Shown here piece after piece: positions 10,901 through 56,221 of a stretch of DNA of 60,691 bases (position 1 is its first letter; each line of letters opens with the position of its first letter). Source of the DNA: a virus; the IMG/VR virus record IMGVR_UViG_3300009068_000043, positions 1 to 60,691 of that record. One strand, 5' to 3'. Below the pieces are notes generated by a model, which was given only the letters and a program-made list of their open reading frames with translations, made no database searches and had not been told where the DNA came from. Position numbers and translations under genes: made by a program.

Positions 10901-13900
10901 TTCAACTGGGCCATCATCTCCTGCTACCCAACTCTTACGGAAATCATTGCGGTTAAAATTACCTACCACAACTTGTTGTGGACTTAACAATGTGCCTTCA
11001 CTATCTACTGGTATCACTTGTAATAGTTCAGGACGCACATACTCAGGTCGCACATATGGTGCCACTGGATCTCTCACTAGGCCGGCTGCTAGATCTCCCC
11101 ACAGCACCAAGTTGCCACTGGTATACGGAGCAGCACCGTACTGTGTTTCCCACCAAATTGGCCGCTCACTGAATCCCAACAATTCCCAAGGCCGTGTGGC
11201 TGGATAGATAGTATCATAAAAGTAATTGTATATGCCGCGCCAGGCGCCGATAAACAGTGGATTTCTGGTGAGTTTGTTTGATGCTGTGCTGTAATTCCAT
11301 GTGAACTCGTTGGTTGCAATGTAATCTTGTGTTTTGTAATCTAGCTTGTTCCAGCCCACCCAGGTCAAGAAGTCCTGGTTCAGGATATTTTGAATTTCTG
11401 TTAGACTGTAATCTGTGGTGCGGAATTCACCCGGGATAACTTCAGCAGAAGTCAGCGGAACAGGATTGCCATCCAGTTTCAGATTGTTGTAAATTCTTGT
11501 TTCAAATTCCAACAACAATGCATCACGGAAATCACTGAATGCTCTGGTAATAGATCCATCATGCCCACGTATCACAAAGGTGGGTGTTACATAAGTTTCA
11601 TCTAAAAATATCTCAGGTACATACGCTGGGTACAATCCCATTTTGGTAGGAGTGTTGGGAACATAACTACCAAACGTGGCTTCGTATTCTTGAATGGTTA
11701 CCACATCACCCACTGCCACTGGTATTAGAATAGTAATAACAGGTGCATCAGCACTGACAACGTATTCTATATTTTTTGTCAGCAATCGATCATTGAGGTA
11801 TACCAACAATGCTTGATAATTTGCTGAAGTGTAATTGTATACTTGTGTAAGATCAAATACCTGTCCAGTGATAGGTGTGACCGTGGTCTGTAACTGTGTG
11901 TATACAGTACCAGTAGGCAACATGTCAGACCAGTAGAACGGATTTGAACTTGTACGCCCTATGTTGATTTCAGAAAATACTGCATCAAGAATAGCCGGCA
12001 CAGTCATATCAGTGTAGTCACCTTGGGCTGCTGTGTTCAAGAACTGTGCTTTGAATTTTTCGTATTCTCTTGAGTTGTATTCCAACGAAGCAAAAATATC
12101 ATAATCAGGTTTGCGTAAGAAATACCCAGCCAATGTCATTGGAGAGCTTTGTTGTAAAATGCTCAGGCCGTACGGTACAATGTTACCAAGATCTCTGGTG
12201 TTGTTGGCACCATTCACTGCTCCAGTCAAATTCACTAGATTTTGTGCAATGGTGTCATAATGTGTTCGGACAGTACCCAATGTAAAGTATGGGTTATTGC
12301 CATTCAATGGATTGTTTTCTAAGTTGATTGGAACTTGATAGAACCCAACAGCACTTACTTGATCACTGAGTACCAACACTTCAACTATATCACCGAGCAA
12401 TATTTCTGTTGTGGGATAAAATCTAATAATTGTGGTGTTGTCTGTTGTGGTAACTGTGTACTTGCCTGGATCCAGGAATAAGATACTGTAATTTTGAGAG
12501 ATACTGGTAGCGTACACCTTGACACTGGGCACTGCTCCTGTTGGTAAGGCTGCTACATCCAACACCAATGGAGTGGTTGCTGTGATAATTTCTGACAGCA
12601 CAGTTTGTTCCGGGGTGATAGTATATGTCCCCACTCCGCCTGTGCCAGTAAGTAATCCTGTAATTTGTGTGCCTGGTGTCACTCCTTTTCCAGCAAGGCT
12701 TTGCCCTATCAACAGTGATCCATTGGCTGGGCCTTGACTCACTGTCATTGTTGTGCCCGAGATAGAAGCTGTTATAGGTGTGGTAGTGTATGTAAAACTA
12801 AATTGTTGATAAACTTGACTCTTGGTCACTGCTGGTTGCCAGCCAAGTTCGTTCACATACACAGTGCGATTTTCATATTGGCGAACATGACCTATGCTGA
12901 TATTTTCAGTTTGCTGTACATTATCTTTGACATAGATAAATGTATCCACATACAAATTATTATCAAATACAATATCACCTATGTTGTTCAAACTGAGATA
13001 ACGTAATGGGAATCCCAACACTGTGTCTGCTACTGTGCCTGGGCCAACGGCATAGCTGAACAATGGACTACCGCCCACTATGGTACCAAGATTGTTTTTG
13101 GTAGTTGAGAAAGTTGAGCTTGGATATACAGCACGATCGCCTAGACTGTAGCCTTTTTGATTGTATACATCAAACATGGGATTTTGATTAACGGCTGTTT
13201 TACGTTGCGCTTGAATCCACTGTACACCGTCGTAGTAGAAACTAGCACCTTGAAGTGTGTTACCATTTAAACAAACCACACATTGATCTATCAGAGCCTG
13301 TGCGTCATCTGCAGGCACAAGATCAATAACCGGTTGTGGGTAATGCAATGTACTGTCATGCAATTCATCAGATGCAGGACTGATAAAGTTCACCACATAA
13401 ATTTTATCACGCACTTGTGGGTCCGTATCTCGTGCAAAAATAACTCTGTCACCTTGTTGTAGCTCGTACGCCGGAACCCCCTGCTCGAAGACATAGTATT
13501 GGGTTTGTCCATTGACCTCTGATAATGCGTCAGTTTGATAGAGATCAATTATGTTTATTGGCTGTTTGGCTTTGGTACCCATGTTGTACAAACGTGTTCC
13601 GCCACGGAACTCCACGATGGGTCTTTTTGCACGGAAGTTGTTGTTTAATACCGCAGTTGTGTTATTGTAGGTAGCGGCTGCTGTTATCACGTCAATATGG
13701 AACCAACGATTTGATCTGGTCCAGGCATTGAGATCAGGGCTATCCAGTGCTATGGTAATATAGTCAGGATCCAGTGGTTGATTAAGTGTTCCGTCCCAGT
13801 TGCTGGAATCCCAAGGAACAAAATCCCAAGGTATGCTGGCAGTACGTACACTTTCTGGTGTGACATAATCACTCACTAACAAAAGTTGTATTGCAGTGCC

Positions 13901-27323: not shown

Positions 27324-27351
27324 TTGACAAACTGGAAAAATATGTTATAAT
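27324..27351 (+). promoter_or_regulatory. Consensus sigma70-type promoter driving gp55
   Basis: TTGACA at 27324-27329, a 16-bp spacer and TATAAT at 27346-27351. Both hexamers are perfect. The start point would be near 27358, giving a ~20-nt leader with a weak AAGGA before the gp55 ATG. Host RNA polymerase could therefore make the late sigma factor. Confidence 0.85.
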
Positions 27352-28329: not shown

Positions 28330-29835
28330 ATGAAAAATATAAGTCCAGGAGAATTAGAATCACACCTCTCTAAGAAATTTAAAGTTCTCAAATTTATAGA
28401 TTTAGCCACAATTGCAGAATCCCCTAGTGAGGCATTTCTGTTGTTTGATCAATTGGCCAAACCTGAATTCAGCCCCGATGAACGTATAGTATTTTATACC
28501 GGCCATGCTGTTGGGCCACGAGCATTGACTTTTCTACAGTATGCTGCTGATGTTTTTGACATCAGTCGATGTTTTGTGTTAGTATGTTGCCCTGTGCCAC
28601 TATCAATTAAAAATCAATACGATATAGAATTTTTTAAGATCTTGGTCGAATCTCATCCATTGGACGATAATCAGGTAATTGATGTCAATACCATGTGTTC
28701 AATGCCATTTTTTAATTTGGAATTTATGAACGACAGCAGTGTCAAACACTGTTGTTTTATACAAGATCAAATTGGATTTGCTGCCGGCTCTGCCGACATG
28801 CACAATCTATTCAATTCAGAAAAATCTACAAAATTAAGAAAACAGTTACTATCAGGCCAACGTCCCGGCGAATGCAATATTTGTTGGAAAAATGAATTTC
28901 AAGGGCTGGGTAGTTTACGACAGTGGCGTAACAAGTTACATAAAAAAGAATTTTTAACCAATTGGATTGATCAGCCCCAGATCAAAAGCATTAGTTTACA
29001 TCCTAGTATCGTGTGTAATTTCAAGTGTAGGATCTGTGGACCATATTCCAGCAGCCTCTGGGTAGACGAAGAATTAAAATATGAAACTGACTTGGCTCGA
29101 CGCGAAAAAATCGTTTACTCTATTGATCAATCCAGGTGGTTTGAGCAAGATTCTCCTGCAGTCACGGGCATTATTGATCTGTGTAGCGAAGTAAAGTATA
29201 TTGATATCTATGGTGGGGAACCACTTCTGCTAAAACAGTTTAGAACCCTATTGCAAAAAAGCATCGAAAGTGGCGCATCTAACACCCAACGATTACATTT
29301 TAATACCAATGTATCTAAGTTTCCGGCCGATCTAATTGAAATGATGCATCATTTTAAAGAGGTGGCTATTTCTTTAAGCATTGACAATATTGGCAAGCAA
29401 TTTGAACTAGAACGGGGCGGAGACTGGAACAATATTGAATATCATGTTGATCAATTTTTGTCCCTGGATCCGGCAATTTTTAAAGTGTCAACTCTAACTA
29501 CTGTGAGCAATCTTAATCTCTTATACCTTGATCAATTAGTTAATTGGGCAGATTCTAAAAATTTAGATCTAACATTTAATATGTTACATTATCCTGAATA
29601 TTTACAATTTGATCGTGTTACCTCACAAATCCGAGACCTAGCGGTTAAACAGTACCAATATCATCCAAACAGTTATCTCAAAAATATTGCACAGAGTTTG
29701 ATAAACAAAGCCCCCGCCGATGTAACCGAATGGGTAGAAAAAATGCAACAGATGGATTATCGTAGAAATCAAAGTATTTTGATAACACATCCAGAACTGG
29801 CCAAGGGCATGGGCTATACAAACAATACCAAATAA
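28330..29835 (+). CDS. Radical SAM protein with an N-terminal SPASM/twitch-like domain
   Basis: Radical SAM enzymes use a [4Fe-4S] cluster and S-adenosylmethionine to start radical chemistry. The cluster motif is CNFKCRIC (C229, C233, C236; CxxxCxxC), followed by a YGGEPLL SAM-contact segment near residue 297. Upstream (about 120-205) lies a permuted twitch-like auxiliary domain: CSMPFFNLEFM, KHCCF, LRKQLLSGQRPGECNICW and GLGSLRQW. This order, auxiliary domain first, is typical of the twitch-type proteins common in aquatic phages. The first ~115 residues are an extra domain without a recognised family. No Shine-Dalgarno is obvious before the ATG and there is a 51-nt gap after gp55. The substrate is unknown. 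Confidence 0.88.
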   Translation: MKNISPGELESHLSKKFKVLKFIDLATIAESPSEAFLLFDQLAKPEFSPDERIVFYTGHAVGPRALTFLQYAADVFDISRCFVLVCCPVPLSIKNQYDIEFFKILVESHPLDDNQVIDVNTMCSMPFFNLEFMNDSSVKHCCFIQDQIGFAAGSADMHNLFNSEKSTKLRKQLLSGQRPGECNICWKNEFQGLGSLRQWRNKLHKKEFLTNWIDQPQIKSISLHPSIVCNFKCRICGPYSSSLWVDEELKYETDLARREKIVYSIDQSRWFEQDSPAVTGIIDLCSEVKYIDIYGGEPLLLKQFRTLLQKSIESGASNTQRLHFNTNVSKFPADLIEMMHHFKEVAISLSIDNIGKQFELERGGDWNNIEYHVDQFLSLDPAIFKVSTLTTVSNLNLLYLDQLVNWADSKNLDLTFNMLHYPEYLQFDRVTSQIRDLAVKQYQYHPNSYLKNIAQSLINKAPADVTEWVEKMQQMDYRRNQSILITHPELAKGMGYTNNTK

Positions 29836-30888: not shown

Positions 30889-32645
30889 TCCATCTACGTG
30901 ATATTACAGTAAAAAACTTTATGAGTGTGGGTAATACCACGCAGGCCATTGACTTTGATCGTAGTGATCTCACACTGGTGCTAGGTGAAAACTTAGACAT
31001 GGGCGGTGATGGCTCTCGCAATGGTACAGGCAAAACCACAATCATCAATGCACTAAGCTATGCATTGTATGGTCAAGCCTTATCAAACATCCGCAAAGAT
31101 AATCTTGTGAACAAGACCAATGCCAAACACATGCTTGTGAGTTTGGACTTTAGTGTCAGCGGGCAGAACTATCGAATTGAACGTGGACGTAAACCCAACA
31201 TTTTAAAATTTTACGTAAATCAAGAAGACAAAAGTTCTGACGATGCTCAAGGCGATTCAAGAGAAACACAAGATGCCATTGAACGTGTGTTGGGAATGAG
31301 TCATGACATGTTTCAACATATCGTTGCACTAAACACATATACTCCGCCGTTCTTGAGTTTGAAGGCCAATGAACAACGCACTATCATCGAACAACTGTTG
31401 GGTATCACACTGTTGAGTGAACGTGCCGATCGTATCAAAGAGCTTAACAAAGCCACCAAAGATTCTATTCAGTCAGAAGAACTACGAATCCGAGCAGTTC
31501 AAGAAGCCAACAAACGAATTGAAGAGCAAATTCAAAGTTTGGAAAAACGTCGCACATTGTGGCTACGTAAACAAACTGAAGATGTGGCTGCATTAACACA
31601 AGGCATCGGTGATCTTGAGCACATTGACATCGAGGCGGAAGTCCAATCACACAGAAATCTTGAGGCATATCATGTGCGTAAGAAAACAGCAGACGATGCA
31701 AATCGGTGGATCAAACAAATCAATGCTGACGACGTAAAATTACAAAAACAATTTGATCAGACCAAGAAAGATCTGAATCAAATTGCCAGTCACAAATGTT
31801 TTGCATGTGGTACAGAGATACACGACAACAGTCTAGATACTGTGAAAGCACAGCGTGAAAAAACTCTGCAAGAATTGGCATTGCAATTGTTGACCAATGA
31901 TACACAACGCATGGAACATCAAGATCGATTATTGAAACTTGATGAGTTAGGCACGGCACCTACAGTTTTTTATGACAACTTAGAACAAGCATTGAATCAC
32001 AAAAATACTGTGAATACCTTACGCAAGGACCTTGCAGCAAGATCATCCGATGCCGATCCGTATGCTGAACAAATTGCAGACATGCAACACCAAGCATTGC
32101 AAGTGGTAAGTTACGATACCCTAAACGAATTTACCAGGGTACAAGAACATCAAGAATTCTTGTTAAAGTTATTGACCAGCAAGGACAGTTTTGTTCGTAA
32201 GAAGATCATTGACCAAAACTTGAGTTATCTCAATGCAAGACTCACATACTATCTTGATCGCATTGGATTACCACATACTGTAAAGTTTCAAAACGATTTA
32301 ACTGTTAGTATTGAAGAGTTGGGGCGTGAATTGGATTTTGATAACTTATCTCGTGGTGAGCGTAATCGACTTATCTTAAGCATGAGCTGGGCATTTAGAG
32401 ATGTGTGGGAAAGTTTATATCGTCCTATCAACATTTTATTTATTGACGAGATGATTGATTCGGGACTTGACACACAAGGTGTAGAGAATGCACTGGCATT
32501 GCTGAAAAAGATGAGTCGAGAACGACAAAAATCAATCTGGTTAGTCAGTCATAGAGATGAATTGACCAGCAGGGTAGAGAATATTCTTAGGGTGGTTAAA
32601 GAGAATGGATTTACCAGTTATAGCACGGACATTGACCTTGCGTGA
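30885..32645 (+). CDS. 46: Recombination endonuclease subunit gp46 (Rad50/SbcC-like ATPase)
   Basis: SMC-like ATPase partner of gp47. Walker A is NGTGKTT (from about residue 46). A coiled-coil arm follows on either side of a zinc hook CFAC (C305, C308). The C-terminal lobe has the ABC signature LSRGERNRL and Walker B INILFIDEMIDSGLD. Length 586 is close to T4 gp46 (560). ATP-driven engagement would gate the gp47 nuclease. The start overlaps gp47 (ATGA). Unusually, the last ~40 nt also encode the start of the following radical SAM gene. Confidence 0.96.
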   Translation: MIHLRDITVKNFMSVGNTTQAIDFDRSDLTLVLGENLDMGGDGSRNGTGKTTIINALSYALYGQALSNIRKDNLVNKTNAKHMLVSLDFSVSGQNYRIERGRKPNILKFYVNQEDKSSDDAQGDSRETQDAIERVLGMSHDMFQHIVALNTYTPPFLSLKANEQRTIIEQLLGITLLSERADRIKELNKATKDSIQSEELRIRAVQEANKRIEEQIQSLEKRRTLWLRKQTEDVAALTQGIGDLEHIDIEAEVQSHRNLEAYHVRKKTADDANRWIKQINADDVKLQKQFDQTKKDLNQIASHKCFACGTEIHDNSLDTVKAQREKTLQELALQLLTNDTQRMEHQDRLLKLDELGTAPTVFYDNLEQALNHKNTVNTLRKDLAARSSDADPYAEQIADMQHQALQVVSYDTLNEFTRVQEHQEFLLKLLTSKDSFVRKKIIDQNLSYLNARLTYYLDRIGLPHTVKFQNDLTVSIEELGRELDFDNLSRGERNRLILSMSWAFRDVWESLYRPINILFIDEMIDSGLDTQGVENALALLKKMSRERQKSIWLVSHRDELTSRVENILRVVKENGFTSYSTDIDLA

Positions 32646-33501
32646 TATAAAAGTCTTACACCTGGAGCCCACAGATGTATGCCAAGCAGCATGCCCTTTG
32701 TGTGCAAGAGAAACTGACAAAAATTTTCGTAAAGATCGTCAGCACCACCTTGACATGTACAAACTAATGCAAGCGTTTGATGCTGATAAAATTGCCAAAT
32801 TAGACAAAATGTTCATGTGCGGCAACTATGGAGATCCTGCTGCTGGCAAGTACACACTGAACATCTATCGTGAATTTAGAAAACTCAACAAAAAAATTGT
32901 GCTAGGCATGAATACCAATGGAGGATTGCAAAATGCTCTATGGTGGAATGAATTAGGACGTATATTTCATCAACCTCAAGACTATGTTGTATTCAGCATA
33001 GATGGGCTTGAAGGCACCAACCATGTTTACAGAAAAAATGTTACCTGGTTGCGAATAATGCAAAACGCACAGTCTTTTATACAAGCAGGAGGATCTGCAC
33101 ACTGGGACATGTTGGTGTACCGGCATAATCAACATCAAGTTGATGAGTGTAAGCAACTTGCTCAATCTATGGGATTTAAATGGTTTCGTGCTAAAGTTAG
33201 TAAACGTGGATTTACAAACAAATTAGAACAACCAATTGGATGGGGTATTCCGTCTATGGTATCCACCACAATTGATTGTCATGCTATTAAAGAGCAAAGC
33301 ACTTATATAGATGCACAAGGAAATATAAGTCCATGCTGCTGGCTTGGTGCAAGACAACAAGATTTTGTTAGAGATTTTACTCAAATACAAAACTCTTGGA
33401 CTAGTTTGCAACCTAATATTGTATGTGTGGATACCTGCGGATCCAAAGATGGCGGATCCAATTTTAGCAATCAATGGCAAAGAGAGGTTGAACTTGTTTG
33501 A
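32605..33501 (+). CDS. Radical SAM/SPASM-like protein, 298 aa (paralogue 1)
   Basis: Radical SAM core with CQAACPLC (C26, C30, C33; CxxxCxxC) very near the N-terminus and an MCGNYGDP segment where other members have a GG-E-P-like motif. The C-terminal region carries auxiliary-cluster cysteines typical of a short SPASM/twitch domain: IDCHAIK, DAQGNISPCCW and CVDTCGSKDGG. It is clearly paralogous to the next gene (shared TNGG, SIDGLE/GIDGLE, HxxYRKNV, AGG.A.W and HNQHQV). The chosen ATG overlaps gp46 by 41 nt. No strong Shine-Dalgarno is present, so coupling to gp46 translation is likely. Substrate unknown; SPASM-type enzymes often modify peptides or proteins. Confidence 0.88.
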   Translation: MDLPVIARTLTLRDIKVLHLEPTDVCQAACPLCARETDKNFRKDRQHHLDMYKLMQAFDADKIAKLDKMFMCGNYGDPAAGKYTLNIYREFRKLNKKIVLGMNTNGGLQNALWWNELGRIFHQPQDYVVFSIDGLEGTNHVYRKNVTWLRIMQNAQSFIQAGGSAHWDMLVYRHNQHQVDECKQLAQSMGFKWFRAKVSKRGFTNKLEQPIGWGIPSMVSTTIDCHAIKEQSTYIDAQGNISPCCWLGARQQDFVRDFTQIQNSWTSLQPNIVCVDTCGSKDGGSNFSNQWQREVELV

Positions 33502-34597
33502 TTTTTCTGTGATTGATGAGTATCAAATTGAAATAACCACATACTGTAATGCGGCCTGTCCACAGTGCCCGAGAAATGATCTTGGTCACGGTATCAATCC
33601 TTACATGCCATTGACCCATCTTGATCGTGTGGTAATTGATCGTGCATTTGATACAGAACTTTGCACACGGTTACGACAAATATTCTTCTGCGGCAGTTAT
33701 GGCGATCCTATCATGCATCCTGATTTTCTGGGCATCTTGCGAGATTTTCGCAGCAAGAATCCCTCACTATGGTTGTATATGCATACCAATGGGGGTGTGC
33801 ATGACCCAGAGTATTGGACAGAGATAGCCCGGATCATGAATGGATATGGACAAATAGATTTTGGAATAGACGGCCTTGAAGATACCTTACATCTATATCG
33901 TAAAAATGTAAAATACAATCAAGTCATAGCCAATGCACAAGCATTCATCAATGCCGGTGGTCGTGCGCAGTGGAACTACATAGTGTTCCAACATAACCAA
34001 CATCAAGTTGAGCAAGCTAAAGAACTAGCAGCTAGCATGAAGTTCCACAACATTCTGATACGTAAGACTGGTAGATTTCTCAATCATGCCTTGATGGAAG
34101 AGATGCAAACATGGCCTATTAAAAACAGTGATCGTGTGTTAGCACCGTCCGACCATCCAGAATATCGCAATGCAAGCATGATGTTTCTGCCCAACTTAAA
34201 AAAACAATATGCATCAGTTAAGGATTATTTTGATACCACCCCAATACGGTGTGATGCTATGATGGGACGCAAAGTAGCTATTAATGCTGAGGGTGTGGTA
34301 TTGCCTTGCAATTTTTTCAATCACAACCTGTATGATGCTAGATTCAGAGACGGCAGTTTGCCTGGTGCCAATCCATTAAGCCAACACAATGGACGCAATC
34401 AGATCACAGACTTTTTGTCAAGATATGGCTTAGATAATCTCAATCTACACAATAACTCATTAGAGGGTGTGTTTGAGAATCCCATGTGGTCGGATCTAGT
34501 AGAGAGCTGGAACAATGAACATAGATTGTTTGAATGTGCAATGACCTGTGGTAGTAAATTTACAAAAGTATGGGATCAAGGAGGATCCAAAATATGA
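33449..34597 (+). CDS. Radical SAM/SPASM-like protein, 382 aa (paralogue 2)
   Basis: CNAACPQC (C33, C37, C40) gives the cluster motif, followed by FCGSYGDPIMHPDFLGILRD, MHTNGGVHDPEYW and DFGIDGLEDTLHLYRKNV. C-terminal auxiliary cysteines lie in IRCDAMMGRKVAINAEGVV, LPCNFF and CAMTCGSK. The reading frame could begin at 33344, but that would add ~35 hydrophobic residues overlapping the upstream gene. The ATG at 33449 places the first cluster cysteine at a family-like distance and is preferred. It is longer than its paralogue by an insertion before the auxiliary cysteines. It overlaps the upstream gene by 53 nt and the downstream dehydrogenase by 4 nt, so this is a tightly coupled set. Confidence 0.86.
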   Translation: MADPILAINGKERLNLFDFSVIDEYQIEITTYCNAACPQCPRNDLGHGINPYMPLTHLDRVVIDRAFDTELCTRLRQIFFCGSYGDPIMHPDFLGILRDFRSKNPSLWLYMHTNGGVHDPEYWTEIARIMNGYGQIDFGIDGLEDTLHLYRKNVKYNQVIANAQAFINAGGRAQWNYIVFQHNQHQVEQAKELAASMKFHNILIRKTGRFLNHALMEEMQTWPIKNSDRVLAPSDHPEYRNASMMFLPNLKKQYASVKDYFDTTPIRCDAMMGRKVAINAEGVVLPCNFFNHNLYDARFRDGSLPGANPLSQHNGRNQITDFLSRYGLDNLNLHNNSLEGVFENPMWSDLVESWNNEHRLFECAMTCGSKFTKVWDQGGSKI

Positions 34598-45400: not shown

Positions 45401-46150
45401 ATGAAACCTTATACATATCTAATCAAACATCGACCTTCCGGCAAAGTCTACTATGGATACCGTTCGGCTAACCGAGTAGATCCTGTAGACGATCTGTGGA
45501 AATACTATTTCACAAGTAGTCCGGGTGTTCAGAAACTAATAGAAGAAACAGGCGTAGACAGTTTTGATACAGAAGTACGCCGGGTATTTGAGACAAAAGA
45601 GCAAGCAAGCGACTGGGAAACAAGAGTTCTTAGTCGTTGTAAAGTATTAAAAGATGATCGTTGGCTCAATCAAAATGTAGCGGGATACATAGTTCCTACA
45701 GAAGAAAGTCGAAAAAAGATTAGTGATTACCACAAAGACAAACCCAAGAGCGAAGAACATAAACAAAATTTAAGCGACTCACAAAAAGGTAGCAAGCGTC
45801 CGTGGTCTAAGCAAAATCTACCAAAAGACAACAAAGGTAAAAATAATGGCATGTATGGAAAGTCTCATTCAGAAGAGTCTAAGAAAAAAATTGGAGAAAA
45901 AAATAGAATACACATGCAAGGTGATAACAATCCAATGAAAAAAGTAGAGTGGACAGAAGAACGCAAAGAACATATGCGACAGATTCGTGCTAAAAGACAA
46001 CCTTGGACAGAAGAACAAAAAAAAGCAGTAGCTCAGAAGTTAACCGGACTAAAGCGACCAAAACTCTACTGTGCTCACTGTGACAGACACATAGCTCAAG
46101 GCTGGTTTCACAGACACGGTGATCACTGCTCAAGCATAAATACCCTGTAA
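45401..46150 (+). CDS. GIY-YIG homing endonuclease with NUMOD3 repeats and a zinc-finger tail, 249 aa
   Basis: Free-standing homing endonuclease of the Seg/I-Tev type. The GIY-YIG domain occupies residues 1-95 (YTYLIKHRPSGKVYYGYRSA holds the YLI and YYG motifs). NUMOD3-type DNA-binding repeats follow: SEESRKKISDYHKDKPK-like units at about 105-125 and 125-145, NNGMYGKSHSEESKKKIGEK, and GDNNPMKK..WTEERKEHMR. The C-terminus has a possible zinc finger CAHCDRHIAQGWFHRHGDHC. It sits directly after the major capsid gene terminator, a typical invasion site for homing genes near conserved targets. It has its own promoter elements and is not part of an intron. Confidence 0.9.
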   Translation: MKPYTYLIKHRPSGKVYYGYRSANRVDPVDDLWKYYFTSSPGVQKLIEETGVDSFDTEVRRVFETKEQASDWETRVLSRCKVLKDDRWLNQNVAGYIVPTEESRKKISDYHKDKPKSEEHKQNLSDSQKGSKRPWSKQNLPKDNKGKNNGMYGKSHSEESKKKIGEKNRIHMQGDNNPMKKVEWTEERKEHMRQIRAKRQPWTEEQKKAVAQKLTGLKRPKLYCAHCDRHIAQGWFHRHGDHCSSINTL

Positions 46151-46976: not shown

Positions 46977-49900
46977 ATGGCTATTATTAAAACTCCAGTA
47001 GTGGGTGTTTCACCCTACGACACAACTGCTACTGCACCTATTGTGTTGCGAGCCGATGCAAATGGCAACACAGTATTGGCCAATCCGCCTGTTGCTGCTG
47101 CTGCCGCTGCTGCTGATATTGCTGCAACCAATGCCAATAGTAATGTGTATGTGACTGGTCAAGAAGCGTTAAACAGATTGATTACCACCAACAGCAGTGG
47201 TGTATTTGCAGGTGCCAATGTCACTATCAATCTTGAAGAACAGAATTTTACCACCACCAATCAGGTCACATCAAACACAAACTATCCGTCAGGCAATATC
47301 GGAGAGATACAATTCAATTCAGGTTCCAACAGTTTTGCCAGCAATGCCTATTTCACTTATGCTGACAGCAATATCATAACACCGGGCATTCGCACTGATG
47401 GTTATTTTTATGCCAATGGCACACCATTCACCAGTGGTGGTAATGCGGCAATTGGTAATTTTGTATTCACAGGCGACACAATGTCTATTGCTCATGTCAA
47501 TAGTGCATTAAACATCAAGGGCAACAGCACCGGCAATAATGAAAATTATATCATTATCAATCCAACCAGCGTTGACATCTATGCTTTCAACACCAGCCCT
47601 TACAGCTACGCAGAACTTTATTTAGAGAATAGCAATACTGAAACGCCATATGCTCAGATTATTGTAGATGGAAATTCAACACCTCAACAAACTTGGACCT
47701 TTGACCACAATGGTAATCTCACTGCTCCAGGAAATATTTCTGCTATCAATTTAATAATCAACAGCATTCGCAGTGATGATTCAAGTTTTGTCACAATTGA
47801 AGATGGATTGAATGTTACCTCGGGGTTGATATCTGCTCCAGGAAGTATGTCACTCACTGCTGGTGCTAATACTTGGACCTTGTACGCCAATGGCACCACA
47901 CAGTTTCCTGCTAATGTCATACAGGCACCAGCAGGCAGCCCAATAACCGTTAGAACTACCAACGGCAATACCTATTCTAGACTTGCAGCGGGTGATACCT
48001 TTGCCCAAATTGGATTACAAAATGACACTACTGGTGCATATCAGGCCTGGGCATATGTTGAAACTGACATGGCCAATGTCAATACACCGTCTGCTGTGAT
48101 TATTCTCAAACCCGGTGACACTGGCACCGAAGTGCGTTGGAACTTTGATGCTACTGGTGATATGACTGCTCCGGGCAACATTTCAGCTGTGAATCTTGTG
48201 ATCAACAGCATTCGCAGTGATGATTCTACTTTTGTCACAATTGAAGATGGCTTGAATGTTAATGGAGAAATTTCAGCAACCGGTAACATCACAGGCAATT
48301 ACTTTATTGGTAACGGCTCACAGTTGACTGGCATAATAGCCAACACCGGCAATGTGACCTTCAGAGACGAGATAGTGATAGGCACGGGCACAAGCAATCT
48401 CATTAGTGGATTGTATCTTGCACCCAGCAGTTCCAGCGCAAATGCCAATATGTACTTGCGAGTGCGGGGCAATATCAATGACGAACCCACTCACATACAT
48501 TTTGATACCGGCAACAATGCATACTACAATCAGTTCATCGGCGATGACAACAAATATATACAACTGGCCAACACAGGCAATATTATTATCAACAGCAATG
48601 ATGGTGTGGGCAACTCGGCACAATGGACCTTTGGATCAGCTGGTAAGATCATATTGCCCCAAGGGGCCTCACTGAACGATACCTCAGGTGATAGTGTGGC
48701 ATTTGGATACCGTGCTGGTACCAGTCAAGCCCAACACGCTGTGGCCATTGGTGCCTATGCCGGTAATCTATATCAAGGCGAAGATTCCATTGCCATTGGT
48801 TACCAAGCTGGATATCACGATCAACAGCGCGGTGTGGCCATTGGATATCAAGCTGGTGTTGGTGGAACATTGTACCGAAGTGTAAGCGATGCTCAAGGCG
48901 GATCAGGTCCGGTTACAACTTATTCACCGTCGGCGCCGCCCAATCCCAGCAGATTGTATGTGGCCAGCACAGCCAACATTGTGACCAACCAACGAGTATT
49001 TGGCAACAACATTCAGGCCAACACATTGGTAACAGCCGTATACTCCGGCGAAGACCGAGTTGATATCACTCCGAACTACACAGCAACCATGACTGACGGC
49101 GACCCACTAACATTTGTTGGTGTTGTGATCGGCATCAACGACGCCAGCAACATAATATACCCAATGCGAGTCACTGGGACTAACATTCCTACCAACACAT
49201 TTGTGCAGAGCACAGGATGCAGCGTTGTGACATTGAGTCAGTATCCCACAGCACCGTTGACCGATGGTGCCAGTCTTGTATTCAACATAGGACAAGGTGC
49301 ATATGCCACAGCCGTTGGTTATCGAGCAGGACAAACTTTTCAAGCTGATGGGGCAGTGGCCATTGGTTATTCGGCTGGTCTACAGAATCAAAGCACAAGA
49401 GCAGTGGCCGTTGGTCAGTTTGCTGGTTATAGCAATCAAAGTGCCAATGCGGTGGCTGTGGGCACCAATGCTGGTGAGTTCACTCAAGCTGTGAATGCTG
49501 TGGCCGTGGGCTACAAGGCTGGTTACTCCACACAAGGTTCCCGTGCAGTGGCCATTGGCGAAGATGCTGGTTTTCAAACTCAAGGTGAAGATGCTGTGGC
49601 AGTGGGACAAAAAGCTGGTTTTCAAACTCAAGGCCGCTGGGCTGTGGCCATTGGTAACTCAGCCGGACGCAGCGGTCAACGTGATAAGGCCGTGTCCATT
49701 GGTTACGGTACTGGTGCAGTCAGTCAACAGGATTGGGCAGTGGCCATTGGTGCCAATGCAGCTTCGTACAACCAAGGATACGATGCTGTGGCCATTGGTG
49801 AACTGGCTGGCAATACCTCACAAGGTAACAATTCCATTGCGATTGGTTATCTGTCTGGTTATGACACACAAGGTGCCAACTCAATAGCCATTGGCGCCAT

Positions 49901-50093
49901 GGCAGGCCAAAGTGTTCAAGGCAACAACTCAATCATATTGAATGCCACCGGTGTAGGTCTAAACGCAGCCACAGCCAATACATTCACAGTTAAACCTGTG
50001 CGTGGTGATAGCACAGCCAATTTGACCGGTGCAGGCTTTAAAACAGTTTACTATAATTCAAGCACTGGCGAGTTTGCTTACAGCACCGATTAA
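46977..50093 (+). CDS. Tail-fibre/adhesin with YadA-like head repeats, 1038 aa
   Basis: The N-terminus MAIIKTPVVGVSPYDTTATA is followed by beta-rich fibre sequence with an internal duplication (NSIRSDDSSFVTIEDGLNV at about residues 262 and 414) and the fibre motif NYFIGNGSQLTGI. From about residue 570 come 17-18 copies of a 16-residue repeat (AVAIGYSAGLQNQSTR) that matches the left-handed beta-roll head repeats of YadA-type trimeric adhesins. The array is interrupted after the fourth copy by a ~140-residue insertion. It ends with a C-terminal cap (FTVKPVRGDS...YYNSSTGEFAY). AAAGGGA precedes the ATG. Likely trimeric and surface-exposed on the tail. Confidence 0.88.
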   Translation: MAIIKTPVVGVSPYDTTATAPIVLRADANGNTVLANPPVAAAAAAADIAATNANSNVYVTGQEALNRLITTNSSGVFAGANVTINLEEQNFTTTNQVTSNTNYPSGNIGEIQFNSGSNSFASNAYFTYADSNIITPGIRTDGYFYANGTPFTSGGNAAIGNFVFTGDTMSIAHVNSALNIKGNSTGNNENYIIINPTSVDIYAFNTSPYSYAELYLENSNTETPYAQIIVDGNSTPQQTWTFDHNGNLTAPGNISAINLIINSIRSDDSSFVTIEDGLNVTSGLISAPGSMSLTAGANTWTLYANGTTQFPANVIQAPAGSPITVRTTNGNTYSRLAAGDTFAQIGLQNDTTGAYQAWAYVETDMANVNTPSAVIILKPGDTGTEVRWNFDATGDMTAPGNISAVNLVINSIRSDDSTFVTIEDGLNVNGEISATGNITGNYFIGNGSQLTGIIANTGNVTFRDEIVIGTGTSNLISGLYLAPSSSSANANMYLRVRGNINDEPTHIHFDTGNNAYYNQFIGDDNKYIQLANTGNIIINSNDGVGNSAQWTFGSAGKIILPQGASLNDTSGDSVAFGYRAGTSQAQHAVAIGAYAGNLYQGEDSIAIGYQAGYHDQQRGVAIGYQAGVGGTLYRSVSDAQGGSGPVTTYSPSAPPNPSRLYVASTANIVTNQRVFGNNIQANTLVTAVYSGEDRVDITPNYTATMTDGDPLTFVGVVIGINDASNIIYPMRVTGTNIPTNTFVQSTGCSVVTLSQYPTAPLTDGASLVFNIGQGAYATAVGYRAGQTFQADGAVAIGYSAGLQNQSTRAVAVGQFAGYSNQSANAVAVGTNAGEFTQAVNAVAVGYKAGYSTQGSRAVAIGEDAGFQTQGEDAVAVGQKAGFQTQGRWAVAIGNSAGRSGQRDKAVSIGYGTGAVSQQDWAVAIGANAASYNQGYDAVAIGELAGNTSQGNNSIAIGYLSGYDTQGANSIAIGAMAGQSVQGNNSIILNATGVGLNAATANTFTVKPVRGDSTANLTGAGFKTVYYNSSTGEFAYSTD
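48688..49940 (+). repeat. 48-bp (16-residue) YadA-like repeat array with an insertion
   Basis: About 17-18 in-frame units of the type (A/S)(V/I)A(I/V)G..AG......; four units, then a ~140-codon unrelated insertion (about 48860-49300), then 13-14 more. DNA copies share GTGGCC(A/G)TTGG at each unit start. Confidence 0.85.
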
Positions 50094-50101
50094 AGATAAA
50101 T

Positions 50102-50130
50102 TTGACATTGCCTGGTGATTTCTCTATAAT
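50102..50130 (+). promoter_or_regulatory. Consensus sigma70 promoter placing +1 at the glycosyltransferase ATG
   Basis: TTGACA at 50102-50107, a 17-bp spacer and TATAAT at 50125-50130, both perfect; then TACTAC and ATG. The expected start point coincides with the A of ATG at 50137. No Shine-Dalgarno. It would drive the 50137-53465 operon. Confidence 0.85.
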
Positions 50131-50136
50131 TACTAC

Positions 50137-51066
50137 ATGTCCTTGTATGCCGTCACCACCTATTTCAATTCAGCCAAGTATCAAACCAAATTAAACAATT
50201 ATCGATTGTTTCGTAAACATCTGACTGTGCCACTGATCACTGTGGAACTCAGCTTTGATGGTGAGTTTGAACTTGTGCCCACAGATGCTGATGTCATGGT
50301 ACAACTTCATGGTGGCGCTGTGCTGTGGCAAAAAGAACGGCTGCTGAACGTTGCACTACAACACTTGCCCGAAGACTGTGATACTGTGGCCTGGATTGAT
50401 AATGACGTGCTGTTTGACAGCGATTCATGGGTGACACAAGCGCAACAACAACTCAAAAAATACCAAATGGTGCAGTTGTTTTCTCGCAGTGTGGATCTCA
50501 AGCCTGGTGAAACAGACATCTCAGCTGAACCCGAATACTATGCACAAGGACTCATAGCTCGTATTGAATCCAATGGTATGAGTGCGTTGGAAAGACAAAG
50601 CAAATACAGTTGGGGGCATCCACGACGTGAAGTCATGCCTGGCTTGGCCTGGTGCATACGCAGAGATACTATAGATCAACATGGATTTTATGATGCCATG
50701 ATCATGGGTGCTGCTGATCGCATGTTCTTGCATGCTGCATATGGCAAAATTTCTCAGGTGCCCACCACAGTTCCTATGACCCAGTCACACTTTGCACACT
50801 ACCTGAAGTGGGCTAGCCCATTCTACACCACAGTGCAAGGCAGCGTAGGTTACATTGATCATACCGCATATCATCTCTGGCACGGTGACATACCTAATCG
50901 ACGCTATTGGGATCGTCATGATGCTGTGGTCAAACTGGGATTTGACCCTGTGACAGACATCAAACACGGTGATAACGGTGCCTGGCAGTGGGCCAGCCGT
51001 CGACCTGAATTAGAACATTACTGCATTGACTACTTCCAACAACGCCTGGAGGATGGCCATGCTTGA
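50137..51066 (+). CDS. Glycosyltransferase-like protein, GT-A type, 309 aa
   Basis: The N-terminus MSLYAVTTYFNSAKYQTKLN has the opening strand and substrate loop of family-2-like glycosyltransferases. The acidic metal/nucleotide-sugar motif is in CDTVAWIDNDVLFDSDSW (D-x-D within DND, about residue 87). GHPRREVMPGLAWCIRRDTI and DAMIMGAADRMFLHAAYG resemble the acceptor-side region. The C-terminus (AYHLWHGDIPNRRYWDRHD) is aromatic and His-rich. It is the first gene of a three-gene operon behind a perfect promoter and overlaps the ATP-grasp gene by 8 nt. The substrate is unknown; candidates are a virion protein, the host envelope or DNA. Confidence 0.83.
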   Translation: MSLYAVTTYFNSAKYQTKLNNYRLFRKHLTVPLITVELSFDGEFELVPTDADVMVQLHGGAVLWQKERLLNVALQHLPEDCDTVAWIDNDVLFDSDSWVTQAQQQLKKYQMVQLFSRSVDLKPGETDISAEPEYYAQGLIARIESNGMSALERQSKYSWGHPRREVMPGLAWCIRRDTIDQHGFYDAMIMGAADRMFLHAAYGKISQVPTTVPMTQSHFAHYLKWASPFYTTVQGSVGYIDHTAYHLWHGDIPNRRYWDRHDAVVKLGFDPVTDIKHGDNGAWQWASRRPELEHYCIDYFQQRLEDGHA

Positions 51067-52825
51067 ACTTGGAACGGTTTATTCGGCCTGCGAAGGCAGT
51101 GCTTTGGGGGTACTGGGGCCCATGGCTGTGATGGACATTATTGCTCATGTGCCTGATCAATTTGATCAGGGTATGATGGATGCGGACCTAGATCGTGTGT
51201 TGGGATTTGTGAGTCAGATTCACACCAACGATGTTGAATTACAACTGCTGCATCGCGGCATTGGATTGGCTTGTTTTGTACAAGGCATGAATCGTGTGGT
51301 GGTATCCAATCAATATCAAGTGATCGCAGCTAAAAAGTTAGAATCGGGTGCGGTGTGTTTTCGTGTGGCAGTGAGTGTGACCAATCCCGACGCCACAGCC
51401 ACAGCATTTAAATTTGCCAATGACATCATTGACTTGTATTCACAACCAGCACCGCATGACATAGAGCCTTTGGTAGCCTGGGCAGCAGACCAACTTGATC
51501 GTTATGGGCTGCCGGGGCAAAACCAAGGATTCTTGTTGACCTTGTGTATGAAACGTGCTATGCCCGTGAATCAAATATGGCCGGGCACACACATGGTGGG
51601 CACTGGCAAGTATTCACAGCGAATCAGTAGCACAATGACTCAACGCACATCAGCACAGGCTGTGCTGTATGCCAAAAACAAAATTGCCACAGCTGAACTG
51701 CTGAACTTGGCAGGATTACCGGGCAGTGAACACAAAAGAGTTGCCACCTGGGAACAAACTGTCAAGGCTGCTGAAGAATATGGTTATCCTGTGGTGATCA
51801 AACCTTATGACCGTGACAATGGTCAGGGTGTGTATGCTGGTATCACCACAGTGACAGACTTGCAATATGCCTACACAGAAGTCACAAAGATTGTGCCACA
51901 ATTCCTAGTAGAACGACACTTTGAAGGGGTGGGCCACAGAATTACCATTGTGGATCAAAACATAATCACCGTGACCAAAAAACTGCCAGCTACCCTAACT
52001 GGAGATGGGGTCAGTACCGTGCAACAATTGATCGACGCACAGCAAGGGCCCTCACGATACATCAAACGTCCTGAAGGTGGGGAACCATTTATCTTGATAG
52101 GATCCGCTGTGCCAGCCATGACAGTGGATGACGAAGTGCTGGGCATGCTTACACAACAGTCGCACACACTACACACTGTGCCTGCCGGAGACGAAAAATT
52201 ACTACTACGACGACGAAACAATGCCAGTGCAGGTGGTGTCACTCGTGCCATTGACAAAACCACTGTGCATCCGGACAATCAAGAACTGTGTTTGCGTGCT
52301 GCACGTATCATGGACTTGGACATTGCTGGCATTGATTTGTTGATTCCGGACATCACACAAAGTTGGTTAGAAACTGGCGCATTAATTTGCGAAGTAAATG
52401 CTGTGCCACAGGTGGGATACAATCATGGTATCACACAAATAGTAGATCACATTTTTCAAACTGGTGTGCGTGTGCCTGTACATATGGTCATAGTTGAATC
52501 TTGGAATCGAAGTGATTTACATCTTGCACACGAATTGGCTGCGATCACCAGCAGCAATGCATTCAGTACCAGCACGGGTATCTGGATCAATCACAAGTGC
52601 ATGAGCAGACCTTTTGATAATGGCTTTGCCGCAGCTAGGGCAGTGATATTTGACCAACAAGTTGAATCTGCGGTGTGCATAATGACCAAAACCGAAGTTG
52701 CGGAACTGGGATTGCCGTTGGATCAGTTTGATCAAATCCTGATAGAAAACCCCGATGATGTTGTGAACTGGGTCTCTCCGCACAGCAAGAATATCAAACC
52801 TTTGAAAGTGAATAGAAATGAATAA
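51059..52825 (+). CDS. Cyanophycin-synthetase-like ATP-grasp ligase with truncated Mur-ligase domain, 588 aa
   Basis: Start: of two close ATGs, 51059 is correctly spaced (6 nt) from GGAGG. The N-terminal ~200 residues resemble the CphA N-domain, ending with GTGKYSQRISSTMTQRTSAQ. The ATP-grasp domain (about 205-455) has YPVVIKPYDRDNGQGVYAG (K248, G255-G257), FLVERHFEGVGHRITIVDQ, KKLPATLTGDG, LRRRNNASAGG (from R384), LDIAGIDLL and CEVNAVP (E445, N447). In CphA a Mur-ligase domain follows and adds Arg to poly-Asp; here only ~120 residues remain, and its P-loop (GTNGKT) is replaced by ESWNRSD (480-486). So only the ATP-grasp centre should be active, forming amide bonds from carboxylates. The substrate is unknown. 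It is coupled to neighbours by 8-nt overlaps on both sides. Confidence 0.88.
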   Translation: MLELGTVYSACEGSALGVLGPMAVMDIIAHVPDQFDQGMMDADLDRVLGFVSQIHTNDVELQLLHRGIGLACFVQGMNRVVVSNQYQVIAAKKLESGAVCFRVAVSVTNPDATATAFKFANDIIDLYSQPAPHDIEPLVAWAADQLDRYGLPGQNQGFLLTLCMKRAMPVNQIWPGTHMVGTGKYSQRISSTMTQRTSAQAVLYAKNKIATAELLNLAGLPGSEHKRVATWEQTVKAAEEYGYPVVIKPYDRDNGQGVYAGITTVTDLQYAYTEVTKIVPQFLVERHFEGVGHRITIVDQNIITVTKKLPATLTGDGVSTVQQLIDAQQGPSRYIKRPEGGEPFILIGSAVPAMTVDDEVLGMLTQQSHTLHTVPAGDEKLLLRRRNNASAGGVTRAIDKTTVHPDNQELCLRAARIMDLDIAGIDLLIPDITQSWLETGALICEVNAVPQVGYNHGITQIVDHIFQTGVRVPVHMVIVESWNRSDLHLAHELAAITSSNAFSTSTGIWINHKCMSRPFDNGFAAARAVIFDQQVESAVCIMTKTEVAELGLPLDQFDQILIENPDDVVNWVSPHSKNIKPLKVNRNE

Positions 52826-53465
52826 TATTTGGCTAGAACAAATTGTAGCAAATCCTGAACTCATGAGCATGGGACATGGTCAACAAGCCAAGGACAAAAA
52901 CCTAGGCATGGGCTGGATGTATTATGCTCTGGCACGTATGTATCGCCCTGCCACAGTGATGTGTATTGGATCCTGGCGTGGGTTTGTGCCTATGATGTTT
53001 GCTCGTGGTATACAGGACAATGCACAAGCTGGTACAGTACACTTTGTTGATCCTGGCATGGTAGACGATCATTGGCAATCACCCGAGAGTGTGAGTGAAT
53101 GGTTTGATCACTACGATGTCAACAATATCACACACCACAAGAAAACCACACAAGAGTTTGTGGAGACCAATGTATATCGCAATTTACAAAACATCGACAT
53201 CTTGTTTGTAGATGGGTATCATTCAGCTGAACAAGCACAGTATGACCATGAAGCTTTTGTTAGCAAACTCAGTACCAACAGCATTGTGTTATTTCATGAC
53301 AGTATGAGTAGAAATGCTTCTAAAATTTATGGTGCAGATCGTGTGTACAATTATTCAGTATGCGATTATATTGATCAGTTACGTAGCCGCCCCAACATGC
53401 AAATCATGGACTTTCCGTTTGAAAACGGTGTTACATTAGTTCGCCATCAAATTCCTGGTGTTTAG
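52818..53465 (+). CDS. SAM-dependent methyltransferase-like protein, 215 aa
   Basis: Class I methyltransferase fold of the Methyltransf_24-like kind: VMCIGSWRGFVPMMFARGI in the SAM-binding motif I position, GTVHFVDPGM as the acidic strand 2, IDILFVDGYHSAEQAQYDHE as motif IV, and SIVLFHDS as strand 5. The His-Asp residues in HxxEQ..YD and FHDS are typical of this family. Enzymes of the type often act on sugars, acyl chains or small carriers. It is the third gene of the glycosyltransferase/ATP-grasp operon (ATG inside the previous stop). Its own stop overlaps by two bases the stop of the convergent glycosyltransferase gene, leaving no space for a terminator. Confidence 0.82.
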   Translation: MNNIWLEQIVANPELMSMGHGQQAKDKNLGMGWMYYALARMYRPATVMCIGSWRGFVPMMFARGIQDNAQAGTVHFVDPGMVDDHWQSPESVSEWFDHYDVNNITHHKKTTQEFVETNVYRNLQNIDILFVDGYHSAEQAQYDHEAFVSKLSTNSIVLFHDSMSRNASKIYGADRVYNYSVCDYIDQLRSRPNMQIMDFPFENGVTLVRHQIPGV

Positions 53466-54613
53466 ATCTTAAAAAAGCCCAGGAATTTGTGCATACGGTT
53501 GATCACTGAGTCCCAGTCGCCCATTTTGGGTTGCCGATACAGTCTGGCACTGGGATACCAAGGTGAATCTTCACGCTGTAGTAACCAGCGCCAACAATTG
53601 CCATAAGCATTGAGTGGAATCCAAACAGGACGACCCATGGCTCCAGCCAAGTGTGCATTGGCAGTATCTACTGATATCACAAGATCCAAGTGATGCATGA
53701 GTCCTGCGGTGTCACTAAAATCTTTAATTGTTCCTGGATAACACTCACCACCAGCGGCCGTGATAGCAGCAGATTCTTCTTCAGACGAATCCACAGTTAG
53801 ATTGATCCATTGATGTTCAGGATTGCGACGTATAAGATCAGTTATTTTTTCTATAGGTATGGCTTTGTGATTGTGTATCCAAGAATCTTCACGGCCTCTC
53901 CAGCAAACACCAATCCTCATGCGTTTCTTAACACCTAATCTACTGGTCCATTCTTTCACTTTTTCAGGAGTGGCTGCAATATATTGCAATTGATGTGTGA
54001 TTGTTTCTAATCGCAGCCCAATCACTCGAGGGATACTCATCATAGAAATCCAATAGTCGTATTCACCAAGATCTTCCCCAGGTGCATAGACACCGATGAT
54101 GTGTCCAGCAGGGGATGGAAACAGTGTTTTAACACCGGGACTCAATATCAATTTTATCTTTGCACCAGCTGATAACAGATTGGCAGAAAATCTCAAGAAC
54201 TGAATTTGATCCCCTAATCCTTGTTCCCCTACCAGTAATATAGTTTTGTCTTTGAGATCTTGCCCAGTCCATTCAGGTTTTGGTAATTTTGGTTTGACAC
54301 CAGCCATGTGCTCGTAACGCCAGCGAGCTTCGTAATACTGCCATCCTTTTTCGTAATCACCGGTGATCAAGTATGCCACAGCTAAATTAAACTCGGTTGT
54401 AACGTTTGACGGATCAATATCGTGTGCAGCGTGTAGGAAAGGAATGGCACGGTCCGGGTAACCCATCTCTCTCAACACATTGCCATAGTTGTTAAATGCA
54501 GCACAATTATTGAAGTCTTGTCCAAACATCTCGGCATAGCATTTTAATGCCAGTTCAGGTTGGTGATTTGCGCGATGTTGATTGCCTTGTTCTAGTAGTT
54601 GGTCGATGTTCAT
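53462..54613 (-). CDS. TPR-containing glycosyltransferase, GT9/GT41-like, 383 aa
   Basis: The N-terminal ~105 residues contain two to three tetratricopeptide repeats (LALKCYAEMFGQDFNNCAAF, NNYGNVLREMGYPDRAIPFL, NLAVAYLITGDYEKGWQYYE). The remainder is a GT-B glycosyltransferase domain: TILLVGEQGLGDQIQFLRF near residue 124, RIGVCWRGRE, then VISVDTANAHLAGAMGRPVW and CWRWLLQREDSPWYPSARLY. This architecture is frequent in bacterial and phage protein glycosyltransferases. The frame is open to 54664, but the ATG at 54613 (MNIDQLLEQGNQHRANHQ) follows a TAAATA box by 5 nt and is chosen. It is the only minus-strand gene in this part. Confidence 0.87.
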   Translation of the reverse strand: MNIDQLLEQGNQHRANHQPELALKCYAEMFGQDFNNCAAFNNYGNVLREMGYPDRAIPFLHAAHDIDPSNVTTEFNLAVAYLITGDYEKGWQYYEARWRYEHMAGVKPKLPKPEWTGQDLKDKTILLVGEQGLGDQIQFLRFSANLLSAGAKIKLILSPGVKTLFPSPAGHIIGVYAPGEDLGEYDYWISMMSIPRVIGLRLETITHQLQYIAATPEKVKEWTSRLGVKKRMRIGVCWRGREDSWIHNHKAIPIEKITDLIRRNPEHQWINLTVDSSEEESAAITAAGGECYPGTIKDFSDTAGLMHHLDLVISVDTANAHLAGAMGRPVWIPLNAYGNCWRWLLQREDSPWYPSARLYRQPKMGDWDSVINRMHKFLGFFKI

Positions 54614-54618
54614 ACGGA

Positions 54619-54624
54619 TATTTA
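54619..54624 (-). promoter_or_regulatory. Late-promoter-like TAAATA, 5 nt before the TPR glycosyltransferase
   Basis: Minus-strand ATTAAATATCCGTATG. It has the same spacing as the gp25 element and decides the choice of start codon. Confidence 0.5.
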
Positions 54625-54663
54625 ATAGTACCTGGCATGCCATCAAAAATAAGTGATTGTCCA

Positions 54664-54757
54664 TAAATAAGTGCTGTACGCAATACTGCGTCTTATGCGG
54701 TTACCCTGCCGCGTAGCGACTAGAACTCGCATCGGACTTCTTTAAGGAGAAAAAATC
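54664..54757 (+). promoter_or_regulatory. Late element and folded leader of the 54758 virion gene
   Basis: TAAATA at 54664-54669, then a leader of ~85 nt with hairpins ACGCA/TGCGT (54678-54691) and GCGG/CCGC (54697-54712), and AAGGAG shortly before the ATG. The long, structured leader contrasts with the leaderless genes nearby. Confidence 0.5.
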
Positions 54758-55633: not shown

Positions 55634-56221
55634 ATGACCATAGCATTTGTATTGGGAAATGGGCAAAGTCGAATTGCCATTGATTTACAAAAATGTAAAT
55701 TGTTAGGTGCAATCTACGGCTGTAATGGACTATACAGAGACTTTGAACCCGACTGTCTTGTGGCTACAGATCGCCCTATCTCAGAAGCTATTCAGCGTTC
55801 AGGGTACGCAAAGAATCACAGATTTTACACAAGAAAACCATTGCTGGACTTGGGTGCACAGATGGTTCCTAAAAAATATCACGGCAATAGTTCAGGACCT
55901 ATTGCATGTGCCATTGCTGCATTGGATGGGCATGATCGTATCTATCTATTGGGGTATGATATGGGTCCAAGTCAGTCAATGAGATTTAATAATGTCTACG
56001 CTGGTACTGAGTTTTACAAAAGTGCAGATGCCGCACCCACATACACTGGAAATTGGATACGACAAGTAGCAGGGATAGCTGTAGATTTTCCAAAAACTAA
56101 ATTTATCCGTGTGTGCGGCCCTACCACAGCCGAAATAAAAGAACTCAAAAACATTGAAAATTTTCAACACATAGATATAAAAACATTCTTATATCGAACT
56201 GATACCAACAGTGACCTGTAA
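55634..56221 (+). CDS. Rossmann-like phage protein of the DUF115/GNG-S type, 195 aa
   Basis: The N-terminus FVLGNGQSRIAIDLQKCKLL forms a GNGxSR nucleotide-type loop, followed by GAIYGCNGLYRDFEPDCLVA, TDRPISEAI, HGNSSGPIACAIAALDGHDR and IYLLGYDMGPS. This resembles DUF115/MAF-type proteins, some of which act in sugar modification, and similar unannotated proteins in aquatic phages. The active site is not known. The start lies directly behind the terminator U-tract and uses GGGAGG from the terminator stem. The gene is followed by a hairpin and the collagen-like fibre gene. A role in modifying the neighbouring fibres is possible but unproven. Confidence 0.72.
   Translation: MTIAFVLGNGQSRIAIDLQKCKLLGAIYGCNGLYRDFEPDCLVATDRPISEAIQRSGYAKNHRFYTRKPLLDLGAQMVPKKYHGNSSGPIACAIAALDGHDRIYLLGYDMGPSQSMRFNNVYAGTEFYKSADAAPTYTGNWIRQVAGIAVDFPKTKFIRVCGPTTAEIKELKNIENFQHIDIKTFLYRTDTNSDL

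Follow-up and report, generated by a model that had tools for sequence, protein, structure and literature searches.

A short CphA-like ATP-grasp ligase in a candidate surface-tailoring cassette of a large tailed phage

We analysed a 60,691-base virus record (IMG/VR record IMGVR_UViG_3300009068_000043, all of which is called the window here) and focused on an operon of three genes whose middle member encodes a short ligase related to the cyanophycin synthetase CphA. The best explanation of this operon as a whole, to which we give a probability of roughly 0.55, is that it encodes an active ATP-grasp ligase within a cassette that tailors a surface or fibre. That the enzyme is an ATP-grasp amide ligase of a short clade of CphA-like proteins is very likely, and the odds are about even that the cassette tailors a glycan or a glycosylated part of the fibre or host surface. 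The window encodes a T4-type Gp23 capsid protein whose nearest matches are jumbo-phage versions, such as those of Vibrio phage 2.275.O and PA5oct (~64% identity), and the replicon carrying the ligase is a large tailed phage.

A CphA-like ligase with a single remaining active site

The three open reading frames lie on the + strand (50137-51066, 51059-52825 and 52818-53465), with an 8-nt overlap at both junctions and a perfect sigma-70-type promoter in front (TTGACA-N17-TATAAT, 50102-50130, + strand), as had been described in an earlier sequence-only reading of this DNA. The second gene (51059-52825) encodes a protein of 588 residues with an N domain (~1-170), a G or ATP-grasp domain (~171-470) and a Mur-ligase (M) domain remnant (~471-575). 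NCBIfam CphA models (862-871 positions) match residues 100-558 with an E value of about 1e-77, at scores (251-261 bits) under their cut-offs of 850-877; for TIGR02068, the equivalog cut-off of 850 bits is missed at 251 bits. Matches in the PDB were, in order, CphA1, CphA2 (7ta5, 8fxh) and GshF. An AlphaFold model from a 30-row alignment had a mean predicted local distance difference test score (pLDDT) of 87. When this model was searched with Foldseek, the best E values belonged to CphA1 entries, CphA1 and CphA2 were both matched over the whole length, and the best whole-length fit was CphA2 7ta5 (template modelling score, TM, of 0.74 both ways over 600 columns). Profiles and predicted structure thus bear out the CphA order of N domain and ATP-grasp that had been read from the sequence.

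The ligase is ~280 C-terminal residues shorter than CphA1. What is left of the M domain at its C-terminus corresponds to roughly the first 100 residues (52472-52783, + strand) and lacks the GTNGKT P-loop and the E-x-x-R-G-G motif. Over 100 columns, hhalign matched the C-terminal ~100 residues to the opening part of the CphA1 M domain with a probability of 96%. ESWNRSD lies opposite the Mur P-loop and CIMTKTE opposite the catalytic Glu, which agrees with the earlier proposal of a residual Mur half whose P-loop has been replaced. The Mur P-loop was found in 0/4 phage proteins and in 22/22 full-length proteins. The ligase, like the rest of the short clade, also lacks HxxEH, the primer-making motif of the CphA N domain (PMC9262961), and a primer-making hydrolase role for the N domain was rejected on this basis.

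To describe the active site, we took residue roles and numbering from TeCphA1 (PMC9427784); the residue counts cover the G-domain rows of the tree described below. The Mg-ATP set of CphA1 (Lys220, Lys261, Asp431, Glu450 and Asn452) is retained as Lys208, Lys248, Asp426, Glu445 and Asn447. By alignment, Lys208 (codon 51680-51682, + strand) corresponds to the lysine that contacts the ATP phosphate, and Arg294 (51938-51940, + strand) to Arg309, the acyl-phosphate or carboxylate Arg. Codons 426-452 (52334-52414, + strand) include the Mg-binding D426, E445 and N447, and P450 and Q451, where P-Q-x-G replaces the P-G-x-R of CphA1. Equivalents of Lys220, Lys261, Arg309, Asp431, Glu450 and Asn452 are conserved across all tree groups.

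Glu215, His267 and Arg458, with which CphA1 reads cyanophycin and Asp (PMC9427784), have been replaced. In the ATP-grasp P-loop KPYDRDNGQG (K248-G257, codons 51800-51829, + strand), Asn254 occupies the position of the catalytic His267, and the further substitutions are Glu215 to Leu203 and Arg458 to Gly453, together with a conservative Arg323 to Lys308. His267, Gly456, Arg458 and His460 are each present in 24/24 CphA1 rows. Neither His267 nor Arg458 occurs in the phages or the short clade: position 267 is Asn, Gly, Arg or Gln, Gln predominates at 456 and Gly at 458. An acidic residue stands at position 215 in CphA2 and in 21/24 CphA1 rows, against Leu or Ile in the phages, which do retain Asn394, Ser396 and a basic residue at 323. 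The statement in the sequence-only reading that the binding residues are present therefore holds for the Mg-ATP residues and the acyl-phosphate Arg, and fails for His267, Glu215 and Arg458. With the Mg-ATP residues kept and the readers of Asp and cyanophycin altered, we expect a different substrate but the same chemistry, in which an acyl phosphate forms and an amine then attacks it; from these residues, the phage enzyme is probably an amide-bond ligase with a substrate other than that of cyanophycin synthesis.

Conservation and bacterial origin of the ligase

The ligase gene is present in eight other virus contigs at 53-100% identity and is full length in all of them except L006, in which it ends at the contig edge; one of the eight, L001, is identical and may be the same virus. 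The gene has no internal stop, and the contigs that reach these points agree in its length, its stop position and its overlap with the following gene. The ratio of nonsynonymous to synonymous substitution rates (dN/dS) among close relatives is 0.09-0.12, and 0.11-0.15 for the C-terminal remnant alone. Bacterial short relatives terminate in the same region. Because relatives down to 53% identity share its length and the gene is under purifying selection, the ligase is no artefact of truncation and is not in decay, and the frame that had earlier been flagged as a potential truncation stands.

To find bacterial relatives, we performed a genome-wide pattern scan with N-domain peptides, which gave no matches, and a second with mixed CphA and phage G-domain peptides; the relatives listed are a lower bound. 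The second scan returned mostly full-length CphA1, along with at least four short proteins (L018, L019, L020 and L025; 598-698 aa) bearing phage-type signatures. Further short ligases were found by profile searches of 385 and 369 genomes from the classes of L019 and L020. Among the matches listed, the short CphA-like ligases belong to Alphaproteobacteria and Burkholderiales. Six are encoded on several contigs of Caenimonas sp. SL110 (G003), which also encodes one 878-aa CphA-like protein without a recognisable Mur P-loop.

A tree of 79 G-domain rows, in which CphA2 is represented by G-domain stretches from printed alignments rather than whole proteins, placed the phage ligases in one clade (100/100). 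This clade is sister to L019 of the Alphaproteobacteria (100/92), the closest bacterial relative among the matches listed, and then to the Caenimonas paralogue L159 (99/94). The phage ligases are nested in the short clade, and CphA2 falls elsewhere, with other short proteins. Constraining the phage ligases and CphA2 to one clade was rejected by the approximately unbiased (AU) test (p 0.0085); this and the tree placement led us to reject membership in CphA2. The phage ligase carries the signature of the short clade, SW-ETGALICEVN-x-P-Q/S/T together with a P-loop that lacks the catalytic His. Given that the phages are nested in an already short clade, loss of the Mur site most likely preceded acquisition by the phage. 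The loss is thus not the unusual phage event that had been supposed: the bacterial short clade shares it, and CphA2 was already known as a single-site cyanophycin synthetase (PMC10206079, PMC9262961). Judged by the tree, an ancestor of this phage clade would have taken up the ligase gene from the short CphA-like bacterial clade.

Comparison with known systems places the enzyme further. With CphA1 (7lg5, 7lgm, 7lgn, 7wac/7wae) it shares the N domain, the ATP-grasp Mg-ATP residues, the acyl-phosphate Arg and the early M domain, but it has neither the Mur-ligase site nor the HxxEH hydrolase site, has replacements at His267, Glu215, Gly456, Arg458 and His460, and is 588 rather than about 870-930 residues long. 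CphA2 (7ta5, 8fxh/8fxi) likewise has one ATP-grasp active site and a shortened M domain, yet lies on another branch of the tree, and its acidic residue and P-G-x-x-M-H motif are missing from the phage clade. The short clade (L018, L019, L020, L025, L159 and others; about 600-790 residues) shares the lost Mur site, the P-loop without catalytic His and a motif of the SW(L/I)ETGALICEVN-x-P-Q type; what differs is Asn254 in the P-loop, phage-specific in this set, and the variable neighbourhoods of the bacterial members. The ATP-grasp module of GshF/GshAB, N-acetylglutaminylglutamine synthetase and RimK share the ATP-grasp fold, but match that part only and score much lower.

Promoter, partner genes and neighbourhood

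Two perfect promoter sites were observed in the window, against 0.09 expected by chance. The operon promoter, called perfect from the sequence, has kept its hexamers in relatives L002-L006; in L005, both are intact despite a different spacer and a different upstream gene. As the end of its -10 box is 6 nt from the ATG at 50137, a leaderless transcript is predicted. The other site (TTGACA-N16-TATAAT, 27324-27351) lies upstream of a gene at 27379. No exact T4-type late promoter (TATAAATA) was found in the window. The host-type promoter leans towards transcription by the host RNA polymerase.

The first gene (50137-51066, + strand) encodes a putative glycosyltransferase-like protein of 309 aa with a GT-A-like D-x-D motif, Asp88-Asn-Asp90, within a conserved W-I-D-x-D-V, and a conserved C-terminal H-x-W-H-G. 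These sequence motifs suggest a GT-A enzyme and are what stands of the earlier glycosyltransferase (GT) label; the product had no match in Pfam, NCBIfam, PHROG or PDB profiles, and its AlphaFold model was of low confidence (pLDDT 44). The family occurs in 48 virus contigs, and 39/48 are outside this clade, with neither ligase nor methyltransferase in the available DNA. It is common in phages as a lone gene (IMG/VR loci L217-L255), including Xanthomonas phage XaC1 (OR258281, 102910-103848), where it is annotated as hypothetical.

The third gene (52818-53465, + strand) encodes an S-adenosylmethionine (SAM) methyltransferase of 215 aa (Pfam PF13578, Methyltransf_24; 59.4 bits against a gathering score of 26.3). 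As far as the pattern search of IMG/VR reaches, it was seen solely in ligase contigs (7/7). The L019 genome has a single copy, 49% identical to the phage protein and ~5 kb from the ligase; between the two lie GT2, an NTP_transf_5 nucleotidyltransferase, a TOD1/MUCI70 GT-like gene and PqqD, the whole group within 6 kb. From this one case, it is reasonable to infer that ligase and methyltransferase were captured together. Other bacterial short ligases are near GT2, GT1, GT25, sulfotransferase, P450 or methyltransferase genes, with recurring neighbours in small groups only (GT2, P450 and phosphodiesterase in three to four genomes).

The order of GT-like gene, ligase and methyltransferase is constant in every contig that reaches them. 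Directly 5' of the operon, a 1038-aa tail-fibre or spike-like protein with YadA-head-like repeats is encoded (46977-50093, + strand), and tail-fibre genes flank the cassette in relatives even where its orientation has changed. On the other side lies a convergent gene for a 400-aa TPR plus GT9-like protein (53462-54664, - strand), found in some relatives (L002, L014/L015, L214), and further on a gene for a 195-aa protein weakly similar to a phage alpha-2,3-sialyltransferase family (55634-56221, + strand); both kinds of gene are near the cassette in several relatives. In the 148-kb relative L005, a Gram-negative porin gene (474-1625; PF13609, E 5e-37) is directly upstream of the fibre gene, and this phage-borne porin may replace or mask a host receptor. 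In the same contig, genes for a BPL_N-type glutamine-amidotransferase-like protein (10378-11196), a calcineurin-type phosphoesterase (11104-11976) and a GT4 (12010-13008) lie 3' of the cassette.

Elsewhere in the window, a GIY-YIG/NUMOD3 homing-endonuclease gene (45401-46150) adjoins the major capsid gene; its copies are 32-53% identical among relatives, compared with ~92% for the ligase. Three radical-SAM-type genes are found at 28330-29835, 32605-33501 and 33344-34597, with an SDR-like gene after the adjacent pair. One of the three, encoding a twitch-domain protein, passes the NCBIfam NF033640 cut-off (252.7 vs 170 bits), and the adjacent pair resembles tungsten-cofactor radical SAM maturases at scores below cut-off.

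Proposed role and alternatives

In the mechanism we propose, the ligase would activate one carboxylate as an acyl phosphate, held by Arg294, and join it to an amine, making one kind of amide bond from a pairing other than that of cyanophycin. The transferase-like protein and the methyltransferase would act with it in tailoring a glycan on the tail fibre or host surface, or else a glycosylated or peptide component of either, and the tailoring would change adsorption or recognition. This reading is favoured by the fibre-gene neighbours, the transferase-like and methyltransferase partners, the TPR-GT9 and sialyltransferase-like genes close by in several relatives, and the bacterial relatives beside GT, methyltransferase and sulfotransferase genes. 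The sequence-only reading had likewise proposed one kind of amide bond, yielding perhaps a poly-acid or an amino-acid-decorated sugar within a pathway for modifying fibres or the host surface. The single remaining ligase site and the tailoring-operon context favour its outline, while poly-Asp and cyanophycin are disfavoured by the lost Asp and cyanophycin readers; decoration of a sugar or peptide with an amino acid or amine is possible. More tentatively, the short clade may have left polymer storage for amide tailoring, and the phage, having taken the ligase and methyltransferase, may use the ligase to decorate fibre or host-surface glycans with an amide-linked amino acid or amine.

Several points weigh against this proposal. 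No substrate for the ligase was identified in this analysis, the first gene is only putatively a transferase, and adjacency to fibre genes is no proof of action on fibres. Having a host-sigma-70 promoter, the cassette could be expressed early and have its target in the host. The methyltransferase was found in 4/754 bacterial genomes; two of these four also encode a short ligase, in one case 118 kb away, so that its proximity to the ligase in bacteria comes down to one genome (L019). Bacterial contexts are mixed, and several of the ligases there (e.g. L172, L173) seem to stand alone.

The host-side form of the same explanation, in which the cassette acts early on a lipopolysaccharide, capsule or porin surface and blocks superinfection, is the strongest alternative, though we consider it somewhat unlikely. 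The perfect host-type promoter, conserved in relatives, and the porin, GT4 and phosphoesterase genes of the L005 region fit it, and cyanophage glycan clusters have been interpreted likewise (PMC7824862); gene order, however, links the cassette to fibre genes, and the cassette has no membrane or export component. Slightly less probable is that the ligase makes a free small molecule or peptide, such as a dipeptide, a modified metabolite or a product resembling ribosomally synthesised and post-translationally modified peptides, or that it modifies a host protein. In bacteria, some relatives sit in settings that resemble specialised metabolism, close to P450, AMP-ligase, radical SAM, PqqD and TonB-receptor genes, and may have such a role. 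Protein modification has been proposed for the R2K ATP-grasp peptide ligases of other jumbo phages (PMC7824862), and the window has its three radical SAM genes, though at least 15 kb away. Yet neither a precursor peptide nor an export gene was recognised beside the phage cassette, whose immediate neighbours in relatives are tail-fibre and transferase-like genes.

A phage CphA2 that repolymerises beta-Asp-Arg, or makes or remodels cyanophycin in another way, for storage or mobilisation of host nitrogen is very improbable. The architecture of N, G and truncated M domains is shared and 7ta5 is the closest whole-length structure, but, in addition to the rejected joint clade, CphA2 has an acidic residue at 215 and P-G-x-x-M-H where the phage has Leu203 and P-Q-V-G-Y-N, the family profile scores CphA1 (264-307 bits) above CphA2 (200-212 bits), and no cyanophycinase-like gene was recognised near the ligase. 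The absent acidic residue for the Arg side chain in itself argues, at the level of sequence, against beta-Asp-Arg polymerisation. Finally, that the gene is a full-length CphA in decay, or one cut short by a frame error or in assembly, as the missing C-terminal residues might suggest, is rejected by the full-length homologues, the low dN/dS that extends to the C-terminus and the similar ends of bacterial relatives.

In the searchable literature (subscription papers lying outside it), we found no precedent for this system, whether among phage cyanophycin synthetases, CphA-like ligases in gene clusters, ATP-grasp enzymes with glucuronic acid amides or virion glycosylation, and no paper on the short bacterial clade. 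Loss of the Mur site is itself not new, as CphA2 is known; what is new by this measure is a separate clade of short ligases whose substrate residues are altered, and the occurrence of one in a phage cassette. The CphA fold thus includes a sizeable single-site branch, seemingly ill-suited to making cyanophycin, whose members may well be annotated automatically as cyanophycin synthetase. If the more tentative reading above is true, amide-linked glycan decoration would be a virus-encoded surface modification without description in searchable papers, and the phage ligase with its two fixed partners offers a compact three-gene system in which to find the substrate and the target.

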